This document shows, piece after piece, positions 11,876 to 19,009 of a stretch of 64,000 nt of DNA (position 1 is the first letter of the stretch; each line of letters starts with the position of its first letter). The position numbers and the translations under genes were made by a program. This stretch comes from a bacterium HR37 (GTDB lineage Bacteria > Desulfobacterota_D > UBA1144 > Nemesobacterales > CSP1-2), in the NCBI GenBank assembly GCA_002898375.1, contig BEIN01000001.1, forward strand, positions 248,001 through 312,000, written 5' to 3'. Below the pieces are notes generated by a model. That model did no database searches. It was not told the origin of the DNA and saw nothing but the letters and a program-made list of their open reading frames with translations.

Positions 11876-13348
11876 TTACCTTTCAAGAAGGTATCTAATC
11901 AAGGTTCTTACACCAAATCCAGTTCCACCCTTTGGATTCCACTCACTTCCCTTATCAAAGAATGCGGGACCTGCAATATCCAGGTGTACCCAGGGTGTAT
12001 TTTCCACAAACTTCTCAAGAAACATCGCGGCAGTTATAGCCCCACCCCACCGGCTCCCCACGTTTTTTACATCCGCAACATCACTTTCAATTTCCTTTCG
12101 AAGCTCATCATCCATGGGGAGTTGCCATACCTTTTCACCAGCACGCTGTGCAGCCTTTATAACCCTTTGTATGAGCTTTTCATCGTTTCCCATAATACCT
12201 GCTGTATAGTTTCCAAGAGCTACAATACAGGCACCTGTTAAAGTTGCAACGTCTATTATCTCACCAACACCCAGTTTTACAGCATAGGAAATAGCATCTG
12301 AAAGAACTATTCTTCCCTCAGCATCCGTATCCACCACCTCTATTGTCTTCCCACTAAACGTGCGTATTATATCATCTGGCTTATAAGCCCTCGCTCCCGG
12401 CATGTTTTCAGTTGCAGATATAAGACCATGAACAACACAGGGCGGATTTAACCTGGGTATAGCCTTCATAACCCCCAATATACAGGCTGCCCCTGACATA
12501 TCCATCTTCATTGTACGCATACTTTCCCTTGGCTTAATACAAAGCCCACCGCTGTCAAAGGTAATTCCCTTACCCACAATGGCAACACTTTTTCTGGTTT
12601 TTTTTCTCGGTTTGTAAATCAGGTGTATAAACCTTGGAGGCTCCTCACTACCACGAGAAACAGCAAGAAGACCCCCCATTCCCCTTCTTTCTATCTCTTC
12701 CTTATCAAAGATCTCACACTCAAGGTTTTCCTGCCTTGCAATGTCTTTGGCAATCTCCGCAAGTTTAGTCGGAGTAAGAACAGCAGGGGGCTCGTTTACA
12801 AGGTCTCTTGCAAAGTTAGTAGCCTCAGAAACTATTTCTGCAAACTCTATCTCTTTCCTAAAAACCTCATCACTTAGCCCAGCCCAAAGGAATCCTACCT
12901 CCTTTACACCGGTCTCTCTCTTATTGTTGGTTGTTTTGTACTTATCAAACTCATAGCCTCCCAGAATAAATCCTTCAGCAAAAGCAGAAACATATCCATC
13001 TTGTTTGTCAGTTTCAAAACCTACAACTACATTGCCTAAAGATTGTTTGGTTTTCCTTGCAACCACTATCCCTGCCTTCCTAAACGTATCAGGAGAGATT
13101 TTTGATCTTTTACCAAGCCCTATAACCAATACCCTCTGAGCTCCTATTTGATCCAGAGTATTTACAGAGACACTTTTCCCGAGTTCCCCTCCAAACCTCT
13201 CTTCCTGAGCCAAACGCGTAATAACCCCACCCAAGGCTTCATCAACCTTACCTGCAATTCCCTTAATACCCTCTCCCTCAAACACCCCAAGTACAAGGGT
13301 AGAGCAGCTTAACTTAAGGACATCACCGCTTAAAAGCCTGAAGTTCAA
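11876..13348 (-). CDS. pepA: leucyl aminopeptidase (M17)
   Basis: A cytosolic two-metal aminopeptidase, M17 family. From the chosen start it has 490 residues, the usual length. Metal and catalytic motifs are in order: VGKGITFDSGG, KMDMSGAA, then DTDAEGRIVLSDA, with Asp where most members have Asn in NTDAEGR. DVATLTGACIVALG follows. The N-terminal macrodomain-like half is divergent, as is normal. I chose TTG 13348 because GGGGGGAG lies 7 bases upstream; the open frame extends to 13414. It is divergent from the cupredoxin gene and upstream of sppA. M17 enzymes free N-terminal residues from peptides, so a role with SppA and the Opp importer in peptide turnover is plausible. Confidence 0.92.
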   Translation of the reverse strand: MNFRLLSGDVLKLSCSTLVLGVFEGEGIKGIAGKVDEALGGVITRLAQEERFGGELGKSVSVNTLDQIGAQRVLVIGLGKRSKISPDTFRKAGIVVARKTKQSLGNVVVGFETDKQDGYVSAFAEGFILGGYEFDKYKTTNNKRETGVKEVGFLWAGLSDEVFRKEIEFAEIVSEATNFARDLVNEPPAVLTPTKLAEIAKDIARQENLECEIFDKEEIERRGMGGLLAVSRGSEEPPRFIHLIYKPRKKTRKSVAIVGKGITFDSGGLCIKPRESMRTMKMDMSGAACILGVMKAIPRLNPPCVVHGLISATENMPGARAYKPDDIIRTFSGKTIEVVDTDAEGRIVLSDAISYAVKLGVGEIIDVATLTGACIVALGNYTAGIMGNDEKLIQRVIKAAQRAGEKVWQLPMDDELRKEIESDVADVKNVGSRWGGAITAAMFLEKFVENTPWVHLDIAGPAFFDKGSEWNPKGGTGFGVRTLIRYLLER

Positions 13349-13477
13349 CTTATACTCCCCCCTGGTACAAGATAAGTGGTTTGTATATAGAAAAAACAGT
13401 TTACCATAAAACACTGGTAAAGCGTAAAGAAATCCCTTAAAATATTACTTGGTAAGGGTAGTAGGGGGCAAAAAAGA

Positions 13478-13885
13478 TTGAAAAAGATATTACTTTTATT
13501 TTCGTTTTTTTTAGTAACGGCTCCTTTATTAAGCCTTGGATTAAAATCCAAGCCTTATAAGGCCTTAGTGGATACTGATGGAGTACAAAGGATAGAGATA
13601 AAGGTAGATAGCTACTACTTTGAGCCTGACCACATAGTGGTTACCGTAAACGCACCTGTTGAGATCACATTGAGAAGCGTAACCTCATTAATCCCCCATA
13701 ACTTTACCATACACTATCCAGATGCCGGACTTGATGTAAATATAGACATACCCCATGGGAGAGATGTAAAGGTAAGATTTGTTCCTCAAAAAACCGGCAA
13801 ATTTGAGTTTTACTGTAACAAGAAACTGCTTTTTATCAACCACAGGGAAAAAGGCATGGTAGGTGTTCTAGAGGTTGTAAATTAA
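13478..13885 (+). CDS. secreted cupredoxin-like copper protein
   Basis: A 135-residue exported protein with an N-terminal signal segment (KKILLLFSFFLVTAPLLSL). The mature part is a cupredoxin-like beta sandwich. The type 1 copper ligand set is readable: His74 in PHNF, Cys113 in FYCN, His122 in INHR and Met127 in KGMVG. The C-to-H spacing (9 residues) is longer than in plastocyanin-like loops. The start is TTG 13478 with AGGGGG 9 bases upstream. The gene ends 7 bases before the type III polyketide synthase, so it is probably in one operon with it. Electron transfer or oxidation linked to that pathway is an inference; it may equally be a general periplasmic copper carrier. Confidence 0.75.
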   Translation: MKKILLLFSFFLVTAPLLSLGLKSKPYKALVDTDGVQRIEIKVDSYYFEPDHIVVTVNAPVEITLRSVTSLIPHNFTIHYPDAGLDVNIDIPHGRDVKVRFVPQKTGKFEFYCNKKLLFINHREKGMVGVLEVVN

Positions 13886-13892
13886 GGTTAAA

Positions 13893-14957
13893 TTGGCAAT
13901 GGCAGGAATAGTCGCTGTAGGCACAGCTAATCCTCCCTATAGACTCCACCAAGATGAAATAAAGGAGTCTATAAACCAGATGCTTTCACGCTCAAGAGAT
14001 GATTTAAAAAAGCTGATAAGTGCTTTTGATAACTCTACAGTAGAAACACGTCATTTCGTACAACCAAAAGAATGGTTTAATCAGTCACATAGTTTTAGGG
14101 AAAGAAATGAGGTCTACATCAAACATGCATCCACCCTATCAGTTGAAGCCATATGCAGGTGTTTTAAAAAGGCAAGATATACAAAACCTGACCACATAGT
14201 GTTTGTATCCACAACAGGTATAGCCACACCGAGTATAGACGCCATCATAATCAACAAACTTCGCCTGGACAGCCACATAAAAAGAACACCAATCTGGGGA
14301 CTAGGTTGTGTGGGAGGAGCCGTTGGTCTAAGCCGTGCCTTCGAATACACAACCGCATTTCCAAATAGTCTGGTTTTGCTTGTTACGTTGGAGATATGCA
14401 GTCTGGCCTTTCACAAAGATGATCTCTCTAAAAGCCACATAATAGCCACCGCCCTTTTTTCTGATGGGGCAGCTGCTGCATTAATAGCAGGGGAGAAAAA
14501 CGGACTTTTTAGTCTGGGTAACATAAGGATAGTAGACTCTTTCTCGACAACTTACTATGATACGCTGGATATAATGGGATGGGATATAGAAGAGAGTGGT
14601 TTTAAAGTGATCTTTAGCAAAGATATCCCAGCCATAGTACGTAAGCACATAAGGAACAATGTAGAGGAATTCATATCCAGATATAACTTAGGTATTGATA
14701 AGATAAAACACTTTATAGTGCACCCTGGAGGACCAAAGGTTTTAAAAGCTTATGAAGATGCACTTGGAATATCAGAGGAAGCACTTGGCTACTCCCATAG
14801 AGTTTTACGTATGTACGGTAACATGTCTTCTTCAACTGTCCTTTACGTATTAAATGAGTTTATTGAGAACAAGAACTATAAGCCAGGAGAATATGGATTG
14901 ATATCAGCTCTCGGACCAGGATTTACATCAGAGCTTCTTTTATTTCAAACCCTATGA
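13893..14957 (+). CDS. type III polyketide synthase (chalcone/stilbene synthase family)
   Basis: A homodimeric, ACP-independent ketosynthase that extends an acyl-CoA starter with malonyl-CoA. It has 354 residues from TTG 13893; ATG 13899 is the alternative start. The catalytic triad is visible: Cys139 in GLGCVGGAVGLSRA, His277 in VHPGGPK, Asn310 in GNMSSSTVLY. VSTTGIATPSIDA is the family segment near residue 106. Bacterial relatives such as BpsA and ArsB/ArsC-type enzymes make alkylpyrones or alkylresorcinols from long acyl chains. The next gene, overlapping by ATGA, is an isoprenylcysteine-type methyltransferase, the same pairing as Bacillus bpsA-bpsB. A membrane phenolic or pyrone lipid is therefore the likely product, by inference. 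Confidence 0.9.
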   Translation: MAMAGIVAVGTANPPYRLHQDEIKESINQMLSRSRDDLKKLISAFDNSTVETRHFVQPKEWFNQSHSFRERNEVYIKHASTLSVEAICRCFKKARYTKPDHIVFVSTTGIATPSIDAIIINKLRLDSHIKRTPIWGLGCVGGAVGLSRAFEYTTAFPNSLVLLVTLEICSLAFHKDDLSKSHIIATALFSDGAAAALIAGEKNGLFSLGNIRIVDSFSTTYYDTLDIMGWDIEESGFKVIFSKDIPAIVRKHIRNNVEEFISRYNLGIDKIKHFIVHPGGPKVLKAYEDALGISEEALGYSHRVLRMYGNMSSSTVLYVLNEFIENKNYKPGEYGLISALGPGFTSELLLFQTL

Positions 14958-15463
14958 ATCCATTTGCAATTTTTTTCACCTTCTTACTACTACAACGTGG
15001 TGGAGAACTCCTTCTAGCAAGGCTTAACGAAAAGAAACTAAGAGCCAAAGGGGCTATAGAACTGGATCAGAAAGGCTACAGGATAATAGTAGCAATGCAT
15101 ATCCTCTTTTTTATTTCCTTACTTCTTGAAAAAAACCTTCTAAATAGAGAGTTAAATAAACTGTGGCTTCCTTTTTTTCTGTTGTTTTTGGTAACCCAAT
15201 TTCTTAGATACTGGGCAATCCTTACCCTAGGGGAGTACTGGAATACAAAGGTACTTGTTCTTCCATCTCATAAGTTGATAAAGAAAGGACCTTACAGATA
15301 CATAAAACACCCAAACTACACTGCGGTTATAATGGAGATAGCCACAATCCCTTTAATATTTTCGTGTTACCTGACAGCATCTGTATTTAGCCCAATTAAC
15401 CTGTTTTTAGTTCATAGAAGGATAAAGATAGAAGAAGAGGCTCTTTACAAGCGTTCTAAATAG
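14954..15463 (+). CDS. isoprenylcysteine carboxyl methyltransferase family protein (BpsB-like)
   Basis: A 169-residue membrane methyltransferase of the ICMT/phospholipid methyltransferase group. Four to five hydrophobic segments are visible. The SAM-binding region reads LGEYWNTKV, then LIKKGPYRYIKHPNYTAVIMEI, and the C-terminal end is RIKIEEEAL. It starts at 14954 within the stop of the polyketide synthase (ATGA overlap). In Bacillus the equivalent BpsB methylates alkylpyrones made by BpsA, which supports O-methylation of the polyketide here. Bacteria lack the prenylated-protein substrate of eukaryotic ICMT. The end is slightly short after EEEAL but within the range of the family. Confidence 0.85.
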   Translation: MNPFAIFFTFLLLQRGGELLLARLNEKKLRAKGAIELDQKGYRIIVAMHILFFISLLLEKNLLNRELNKLWLPFFLLFLVTQFLRYWAILTLGEYWNTKVLVLPSHKLIKKGPYRYIKHPNYTAVIMEIATIPLIFSCYLTASVFSPINLFLVHRRIKIEEEALYKRSK

Positions 15464-15481: not shown

Positions 15482-18400
15482 TCAATCCTGTGGTTCTCCA
15501 AGACGGAGGATCAGATCCCCTGCATCAACGTTTGTCCCTTCTGTAACCAGAATCTTTTCCACAACACCGTCCCTAAGTGCTTTAATGTTTGTCTGCATCT
15601 TCATTGCTTCGATAACAAAAAGAGGCTGTTCACGACTAACCCTATCTCCCTCTTTTACAAAGAAACGAACTATCTTACCGCTAAGAGGAGCCCCAACTTC
15701 CGCAGGATTTGACGGATCAGCTTTCGGTCTTAACTCAACAACAGCACCAGAAAAGGATTCATCCTTTATTCTTACCGGACGTGGCTGCCCGTTAAGCTCA
15801 AAAAGAAGTGGTCTTCTACCATCTGACTCTATTTCACTAATGGCAAAAAGCTTTATAAGAAGCGTCTTTCCCTCCTCAATCTCAATAGAGGTCTCCTCAC
15901 CAGTCTGCATACCATAGAAGAACACAGGGGTTGGAACAACAGAGGTATCACCGTATACCGTTCTATGCCTATCAAACTCCTCAAAAACCCCCGGATAAAG
16001 AAGAGCCGATATTAAATCCTGTTTGCTTATGGGATGACCCAATTGCTTTTCCAGACGTTTCTGGGTAGCTTCAAAATCCGCTGGTGGTATAAGCTCACCG
16101 GGACGCACAGTAATAGGCTCCTCATCTTTTAGAATCAATCTCTGAACATGTGGTGGAAATCCTCCAGGAGGTTGCCCTAGATTCCCTCTCATCATATCAA
16201 CTACAGATTCGGGAAAACTCAGTTGATCTGCCCTTTCCATTGCCTCCTCTACCGTAAGGTTATTCTGTACAAGGAAAAGAGCCATATCACCCACCACCTT
16301 GGATGATGGTGTTACCTTTATAATATCCCCAAACAACCTATTTACCTCAGCAAACATCTGCTTTACCTCTTCCCATCTGTCTCCCAAGCCAAGTGCCTGT
16401 GCCTGAGCCCTTAGATTGGTATACTGACCACCTGGAATCTCATAAAGATAAACATCAGCATTTGATGCCTTCATATCACCTTCAAACGGTGCATAATACT
16501 CCCTTACAGCCTCCCAGTAGGCGGCAAGCTTATGAAGGCCCTTTACATCTATTCCTGTATCCCGCTCCGTTCTCTCCAAAGCAGCCACAATCGCATTTAA
16601 GCTAGGTTGGGAGGTCAACCCAGACATGCTGCTTATAGCCAGATCAACAATATCAGCCCCCGCTTCAGCAGCCTTTAAAACCGTGGCTTCACCATTTCCA
16701 CTAGTTGCATGGGTATGAAAATGAAGAGGAAGACCCGTTTCTTCTTTTATAGCACGGACAAGTTTTTCAGCCGCATAAGGCTTGCAGAGCCCTGCCATGT
16801 CCTTTATGGCAATAAAGTGAACCCCCATGCTTGCAAGTTCCTTTGCCAACCCAACATAGTACTTAAGCGAGTACTTATCACGTTTTGGATCCGTTATATC
16901 CCCCGTATAGCATATTGCAGGTTCAACTACCTTTCCCGTATCAAGAGCGGTTTCTATAGCTACCTTCATATTGGGAATCCAGTTAAAACAATCAAAAATC
17001 CTAAATATATCTATTCCACACGCAGCCGCCTCCTTTATGAACTCCCGTACAACATTATCCGGATAGTTTGCGTAACCAACGGCATTTGCTCCCCTAAGAA
17101 GCATCTGAAACATAGAGTGGGGCATAGCACTCCTAAGACGCATAAGCCGTTCCCACGGGCACTCCTTTAGAAAACGTAAACACACATCAAATGTTGCCCC
17201 TCCCCACATCTCAAACGAAAATATGTCCTTACCAAGATAGGCAGTTGCCCTTGCTATCTTGAGCATATCGTATGTTCTCATCCGGGTTGTAAGTAGAGAC
17301 TGATGGGCATCTCGAAAAGTTGTATCAGTAACCAACAGTTTCTTTTGCTTTAAAACCCAGTTTGCCAACCCAGCAGGTCCCTCTTTTTCAAAAACCAGAC
17401 GGTGTTCTGGAACAGGCAAATCCTTAGAATCTATCTCGGGAACACGTGGAACGCTTGGAGGACGATCCTTCCAGGAAGATGGTCTTGGAATAGCCTTGTT
17501 TATGGTCACATCCCCTATAAAATTGAGCAGACGTGTAGCCCTATCGCGCGGTTCTTGAATTTCAAAAACCTCTGGATGCTCTTCCAGAAAAGTAGTGGTA
17601 CAGGCCCCTTTTCTAAAAACAGGATGGCGAATAACATTAAGAAGAAAAGGAATATTTGTCTTTACACCACGTATGCGAAACTCCTGAAGGGCCCTGTCCA
17701 TCTTGCTTATACACTGTTCAAAAGTAAGTCCCCATGATGTAACCTTTACCAACATAGAATCGTAGTAAGGGGTAATTACGGCACCTACATAAGCACTGGC
17801 TGCATCGAGTCTTATTCCAAAACCACCTGGAGAACGATAGGCTATGAGGCGGCCTATATCGGGCCTAAAGTTGTTTGCTGGGTCCTCAGTTGTAATACGA
17901 CACTGCAGAGCATACCCATGACACTTAATACGCCTCGGGATTCCAATCTCTGGATCAAACAGAGAATACCCCTCAGCAATACGAATTTGAGCCTGAACTA
18001 TGTCAATACCTGTAATGAGTTCCGTAACAGTATGCTCTACCTGTATTCGTGTATTCATCTCTATAAAATAGAAGTTTCCCTCCTTATCAACCAAAAACTC
18101 CACAGTACCGGCATTTGTGTAATTAACAGCACGTGCTATACGCAGAGCGGCCTCAAATATCTTCTCCTTTAGCTCACGGTCAATAGTGATAGCCGGGGCA
18201 AACTCCGCAACCTTCTGGTGCCTTCTCTGAACCGAACAATCACGCTCAAAGAGATGAACTATATTTCCGTATTTATCCCCCAGAATCTGAACCTCTATGT
18301 GTTTTGGACTCTCTATGTATTTTTCAAGTATAATAGCATCACTTCCAAAAGCAGCTCTGGCCTCAGAACGAGCCTGGGCAAGGTTTTCAAGAAGAGACCT

Positions 18401-18961
18401 GTAATCACGGGCGATACGGATACCCCTTCCGCCTCCTCCGTGTGCTGCTTTTAGAAGTACCGGGTAACCGTACTTTTCTGCAAACTCTACAGCCTCTTCA
18501 TCACTTTTTACAAATCCTTCTGTTCCGGGAACCACAGGAACACCAAGACTTGAGGCAAGCCGTCTTGCCTCTGCCTTATCACCCATAAGCGAAATCACAT
18601 CAGGCTCAGGCCCTATAAATGTTATTCCGGCCTCAATACAGGCCCTTGCAAAATCGGCGTTTTCTGAGAGAAACCCGTAACCAGGGTGGATAGCATCAAC
18701 GTTTTTCTCAAGGGCAAGATGTATTATTCCCTCAATATCCAGATAGGCTTCAACCGGTCCCTTATTCTTACCTATAAGATAGGCCTCATCTGCCTTGTTA
18801 CGGTGTAGGGACAGAGCATCCTCTTCCGAGTAGATAGCAATAGTTGTAATACCCAGCTCTGTACATGCACGGAACACACGTATTGCAATCTCCCCACGGT
18901 TTGCTGCCATCACTCTACGAAAGGGTCGAATTGTTCTATTCTTGGCTGCCTTTGGACTCAT
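15482..18961 (-). CDS. pyc: pyruvate carboxylase (single-chain)
   Basis: A biotin enzyme making oxaloacetate from pyruvate, bicarbonate and ATP, which refills the TCA cycle. All three functions are in one chain of 1159 residues. Biotin carboxylase covers about 15-460 (MAANRGEIAIR, GGGGRGIRIA, EMNTRIQVEH). The carboxyltransferase covers about 540-1000 (TTFRDAHQSL, IKDMAGLCKP). The biotinyl domain is at the C-terminus, with the biotin Lys in EAMKM at about residue 1121. I set the start at ATG 18961, with AAGGAAG 9 bases upstream, rather than the GTG three codons earlier. It is divergent from hemB and has its own strong promoter. Supply of oxaloacetate to acnA/icd/mdh/sdh at 42627-52161 is the obvious link. 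Confidence 0.95.
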   Translation of the reverse strand: MSPKAAKNRTIRPFRRVMAANRGEIAIRVFRACTELGITTIAIYSEEDALSLHRNKADEAYLIGKNKGPVEAYLDIEGIIHLALEKNVDAIHPGYGFLSENADFARACIEAGITFIGPEPDVISLMGDKAEARRLASSLGVPVVPGTEGFVKSDEEAVEFAEKYGYPVLLKAAHGGGGRGIRIARDYRSLLENLAQARSEARAAFGSDAIILEKYIESPKHIEVQILGDKYGNIVHLFERDCSVQRRHQKVAEFAPAITIDRELKEKIFEAALRIARAVNYTNAGTVEFLVDKEGNFYFIEMNTRIQVEHTVTELITGIDIVQAQIRIAEGYSLFDPEIGIPRRIKCHGYALQCRITTEDPANNFRPDIGRLIAYRSPGGFGIRLDAASAYVGAVITPYYDSMLVKVTSWGLTFEQCISKMDRALQEFRIRGVKTNIPFLLNVIRHPVFRKGACTTTFLEEHPEVFEIQEPRDRATRLLNFIGDVTINKAIPRPSSWKDRPPSVPRVPEIDSKDLPVPEHRLVFEKEGPAGLANWVLKQKKLLVTDTTFRDAHQSLLTTRMRTYDMLKIARATAYLGKDIFSFEMWGGATFDVCLRFLKECPWERLMRLRSAMPHSMFQMLLRGANAVGYANYPDNVVREFIKEAAACGIDIFRIFDCFNWIPNMKVAIETALDTGKVVEPAICYTGDITDPKRDKYSLKYYVGLAKELASMGVHFIAIKDMAGLCKPYAAEKLVRAIKEETGLPLHFHTHATSGNGEATVLKAAEAGADIVDLAISSMSGLTSQPSLNAIVAALERTERDTGIDVKGLHKLAAYWEAVREYYAPFEGDMKASNADVYLYEIPGGQYTNLRAQAQALGLGDRWEEVKQMFAEVNRLFGDIIKVTPSSKVVGDMALFLVQNNLTVEEAMERADQLSFPESVVDMMRGNLGQPPGGFPPHVQRLILKDEEPITVRPGELIPPADFEATQKRLEKQLGHPISKQDLISALLYPGVFEEFDRHRTVYGDTSVVPTPVFFYGMQTGEETSIEIEEGKTLLIKLFAISEIESDGRRPLLFELNGQPRPVRIKDESFSGAVVELRPKADPSNPAEVGAPLSGKIVRFFVKEGDRVSREQPLFVIEAMKMQTNIKALRDGVVEKILVTEGTNVDAGDLILRLGEPQD

Positions 18962-19009
18962 AAAACTCACTTCCTTGTATATGTGTTGTTTGAAAAATAA
19001 TCCGAAACC

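Follow-up and report, generated by a model that had tools for sequence, protein, structure and literature searches.

A bpsAB-like type III polyketide synthase cassette in Dadabacteria, with a cupredoxin gene that likely moved in front of it once, in a single subclade

The three-gene unit described here is likely to be a bpsA-bpsB-like lipid cassette, made of a type III polyketide synthase (PKS) and an ICMT-family methyltransferase, next to which an unrelated gene for a secreted cupredoxin has moved once, between pepA and the PKS gene. An earlier interpretation of the same DNA (the sequence-only reading) had proposed a conserved cupredoxin-PKS-methyltransferase system. This is not borne out by comparison, as the arrangement is found at five of the 26 PKS loci in the phylum, all in one clade, and a cupredoxin gene is found at none of the 46 PKS loci examined outside Dadabacteria. 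One relocation, confined to a single lineage, can thus be enough to produce a striking three-gene operon. The bpsAB-like type III PKS cassettes themselves are an old, vertically kept trait of larger-genome Dadabacteria, and a literature search found no earlier report of such cassettes in this phylum.

The window, i.e., the whole 64,000-nucleotide stretch of DNA that was analysed, contains the three genes between a divergent pepA and a convergent gene for pyruvate carboxylase (Table 1). The ORF check and Pfam profile matches confirmed the genes, their families and their order; chance ORFs are ruled out, because all three families score above cut-off and are conserved. Scans with Rfam and for promoters and terminators gave nothing useful at the locus. 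The source genome, 2.4 Mb in size and 97.6% complete, encodes one type III PKS. The host is a member of the candidate phylum Dadabacteria (Candidatus Dadabacteria); the closest named relatives of the PKS are labelled as such, and others come from metagenome-assembled genomes of Deltaproteobacteria or Thermodesulfobacteriota.

Table 1. Genes of the three-gene unit and its two neighbours (positions within the window)
Gene product	Position	Strand	Remarks
Secreted cupredoxin	13478..13885	+	135 aa; TTG start; PF13473 match 3.3e-9, above cut-off
Type III polyketide synthase (PKS)	13899..14957	+	Alternative start TTG 13893; Pfam; closest solved relative Pks11
ICMT-family membrane methyltransferase, BpsB-like	14954..15463	+	PF04140, 1.2e-29
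Leucyl aminopeptidase PepA, divergent neighbour	11876..13414	-	Conserved start probably near 13348
Pyruvate carboxylase, convergent neighbour	15482..18970	-	Closes the three-gene unit; ORF and family match

The PKS-ICMT pair is an ordinary two-gene cassette of a kind known from Bacillus, and probably makes methylated fatty polyketide lipids. The PKS matches both domains of its family (Chal_sti_synt_N, 3.5e-22; Chal_sti_synt_C, 3.5e-21), and its catalytic Cys, His and Asn, contained in the GLGC, HPGG and GNMSSS motifs, are invariant in 30 aligned PKS sequences; so is the HPNY motif of the methyltransferase in 28 aligned sequences. Mycobacterium tuberculosis Pks11, the best solved relative by sequence (1.4e-64), shares the catalytic motifs. 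PKS orthologues are present in 26 of 58 Dadabacteria genomes, and the methyltransferase gene follows directly at all 24 loci where the contig is long enough. Outside the phylum, the pair is found at 14 of the 16 genome_contigs loci, which are mostly from Bacilli and some from Alphaproteobacteria (one of the two exceptions is a truncated locus); among Myxococcota, the PKS finds a match in 130 of 195 genomes, and ICMT lies beside the PKS in 29 of the best 30 loci. In Dadabacteria families f1, f2, f3 and f4 the pair adjoins a syntenic block of ilvE, sppA and pepA, and the cassette is therefore old and vertically inherited in these families.

The likeness to Bacillus bpsA-bpsB that was noted from the sequence holds well, the same arrangement being kept across Dadabacteria, Bacilli and Myxococcota. 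In B. subtilis the two genes are likewise adjacent, type III PKS first and methyltransferase second, and the products are alkylpyrones (PMC5686519); in Myxococcota, widely conserved type III PKS clusters have been assigned to alkylpyrones (PMC12766979). This arrangement and these assignments are the reason for filing the pair as a bpsAB-like cassette. Compared with the B. subtilis genes, those studied here belong to a dadabacterial host and have, in one subclade, a cupredoxin gene in front of them. Bacilli relatives that have the pair, Thermoactinomycetaceae among them, show 45-50% PKS identity, B. subtilis BpsA itself lying outside the alignment; the myxococcal enzymes are more distant (about 40%) and are not accompanied by a cupredoxin orthologue: at E 1e-15, a search through 189 Myxococcota genomes gave none. 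By analogy with these systems, the most likely predicted products are O-methylated long-chain alkylpyrones or resorcinols, although DpgA-like and Pks11-like enzymes score well too, and products are not readable from sequence. The PKS cysteine would take up a long-chain acyl starter, to be elongated with malonyl-CoA into a triketide pyrone or a tetraketide pyrone or resorcinol; the membrane-bound ICMT-type enzyme would O-methylate a hydroxyl, and the product would remain in the membrane.

The cupredoxin is most likely an independent periplasmic blue-copper protein. Its N-terminus, KK followed by a hydrophobic stretch, resembles a signal peptide, and the match to the Cupredoxin_1 family together with the His, Cys, His and Met ligands places it among type 1 (blue copper) cupredoxins. 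The full ligand set claimed in the sequence-only reading is indeed present: the predicted ligands His74 (in PHNF), Cys113, His122 and Met127 are invariant in an alignment of all 18 orthologues, two of which have a one-residue insert. The spacing in the protein studied here, C-x8-H-x4-M, is also what copper nitrite reductase has at its type 1 site. Proteins such as CupA, and the type 1 domains of copper nitrite reductase, share with it the PF13473 fold family, as judged by profile, and the type 1 ligand pattern; unlike these, it is a short free-standing secreted protein. An AlphaFold model made from a two-sequence input is mostly beta, of a confidence too low (pLDDT 65.7) for a useful fold search, and has no significant match in PDB. 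After export, the protein would bind one copper and, with no part in the fate of the lipid, would carry electrons or hold copper in the periplasm. A narrower form of this explanation, which we hold tentatively, makes it a respiratory electron carrier or a copper chaperone for other metalloenzymes. Its best profile relatives (nitrous oxide reductase, quinol oxidase SoxA, nitrite reductase, and CupA-type proteins) agree with such a role, but these similarities are weak, and among the scanned neighbours of cupredoxin genes none could be recognised as encoding a copper oxidase or copper transport.

Among the genomes sampled, the cupredoxin family is found only in Dadabacteria, where 18 of 58 genomes have one copy each. 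The gene stands in front of the PKS in five of the 18 (G000, G001, G002, G005, G006), which represent five species and four genera of one family and have it in the same orientation; the other 13 genes are away from the PKS, in at least four unrelated neighbourhoods, and 21 of the 26 dadabacterial PKS loci have no adjacent cupredoxin. In the sister pair G003/G004, a DCC1-like thiol-disulfide protein and a FeeM/GNAT protein are encoded behind the cupredoxin gene; DUF3943 proteins are nearby in most genomes of family f3 that have the cupredoxin; in genus g13 it is found among other genes, and in G020 and G007 its neighbours are unshared. TPR proteins, too, are among the neighbours of the relocated genes. 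With neighbours so different, gene order is labile around the cupredoxin, and it is stable around the PKS. The sequence-only reading had named, as evidence against its proposal, a cupredoxin found without the PKS in most relatives. As to location, this is largely the case; as to gene content, all 18 genomes do carry the PKS.

Two loci of the sister pair deserve a separate description. At L119:2088-4216 and L118:8771-10864, in the genomes G003 and G004, the genes that come after the cupredoxin encode the DCC1-like thiol-disulfide protein and, beside it, a FeeM-type acyltransferase joined to an aminotransferase-like region. The FeeM-type acyltransferase is also found in f3 genomes, there apart from the cupredoxin.

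The cupredoxin is absent from all 32 PKS-less genomes of the 58-genome phylum sample. Its confinement to PKS-bearing genomes speaks against the explanation that we favour, and is compatible with some physiological link. PKS-less genomes, however, are mostly small and come from few lineages, so that the co-occurrence is not independent evidence; marine Dadabacteria are known for genome streamlining (PMC8115339). Eight genomes, some of them incomplete, have the PKS and no clear cupredoxin orthologue, and the cassette therefore seems not to need the cupredoxin.

These distributions bear on the possibility of a functional three-gene system, in which an oxidisable phenolic lipid or quinone would exchange electrons with the periplasmic cupredoxin. 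The common orientation in five species of four genera, the tight spacing in this genome (13 nt and -4 nt), and the restriction to PKS-bearing genomes all fit such a system, and yet we consider it quite improbable. Thirteen of 18 cupredoxin genes are elsewhere, eight genomes have the PKS without a clear orthologue, and the two enzymes, which to judge by their families act at the cytosolic side of the membrane, would be separated from an exported cupredoxin. Local synteny is strong anyway, so that retained adjacency says little. The sequence-only reading had the cupredoxin carry electrons for oxidation or export of a lipid or quinone; this finds no support in the locus, where no hydroxylase, monooxygenase, oxidase, transporter or exporter that might make or move a quinone was found; its conserved surroundings have no hydroxylase or oxidase gene for a quinone pathway either. 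A literature search found no relevant paper that links a type III polyketide synthase with a cupredoxin. Altogether there is little sign that the cupredoxin works with the PKS-ICMT pair, and a redox partnership is possible but unlikely. It is very doubtful, too, that in one subclade the blue copper protein was recruited to the BpsAB-like membrane polyketide as a copper-linked lipid redox carrier, acting in trans in the other 13 genomes; such action in trans would explain why the cupredoxin is found only in PKS-bearing genomes. Should the lipid nevertheless be a substrate or partner of the cupredoxin, a copper-linked electron carrier of the membrane of a new kind would have been found.

The history of the adjacency is best seen in the neighbouring genes. 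In the tree of pepA, sppA and ilvE, the five genomes with the adjacent cupredoxin form one clade (support 100/99), separate from G003/G004; the tree of PKS and ICMT alone does not resolve the five. Since they form one clade, a single relocation suffices to explain the adjacency: the cupredoxin gene would have come between pepA and the PKS gene in the common ancestor of this Dadabacteria subclade, and all five members have kept it there. An adjacency limited to one genome, the other outcome that the sequence-only reading had set against its own proposal, is ruled out by the five genomes that share it. A phylum-wide adjacency is likewise ruled out, as families f2, f3, f4, f6 and f7 lack it, and so does the sister clade G003/G004. 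The placement of the cupredoxin as first gene of the cassette thus recurs in five species, but its compact spacing does not.

Of the two possible PKS starts, ATG 13899 (MAGIVAVG...) is more likely than TTG 13893, because the former is in register with relatives, and the distance from the cupredoxin gene is therefore probably 13 nt rather than the 7 bases first reported. The overlap of PKS and methyltransferase genes by ATGA is exact (4 nt, 14954-14957). In the four relatives with the adjacent cupredoxin, the gap before the PKS measures 144, 133, 162 and 166 nt, and the tight 13-nt gap is peculiar to this genome among the five. A gap so short makes it probable that cupredoxin, PKS and methyltransferase genes here share one transcript, and the cupredoxin is probably co-transcribed with the pair by chance of relocation.

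The place directly before the PKS is variously occupied elsewhere: by an ArsR-type regulator in f3, by a CBS protein in G012 and G020, and by a PilZ protein in G007; in G003, G004 and G009 it is empty. That this slot may hold regulators, and that a single transcript is probable here, would suit an explanation by shared regulation only, with the three genes co-expressed under one condition (such as copper or envelope stress) and no molecule in common. We think this unlikely, given that the gap is 133-166 nt wide in all adjacent genomes but this one, that the cassettes of G003/G004 have no cupredoxin in that slot, and that a scan found no promoter-like site above chance around the genes.

The f3 ArsR-type regulator (92-93 aa; e.g., L034:5514-5813 and L064:6627-6980) is encoded directly before the PKS in 15 of 15 f3 PKS loci, and may control the lipid cassette; a second related ArsR gene is found a few genes downstream in the f3 loci that were read. 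In G020 and G012, the CBS-domain gene precedes the pair, a small conserved gene (about 100 aa; L063:7772-8101 and L062:8188-8493) follows it, and pepA is not the upstream neighbour; with the pair away from pepA, either the cassette was relocated or the block was disrupted in these two genomes. In the small genome G042, of a genus otherwise devoid of the PKS, a 4.4-kb contig (L029) carries two type III PKS genes in tandem, at about 35% identity, possibly as a result of contamination or of a separate acquisition.
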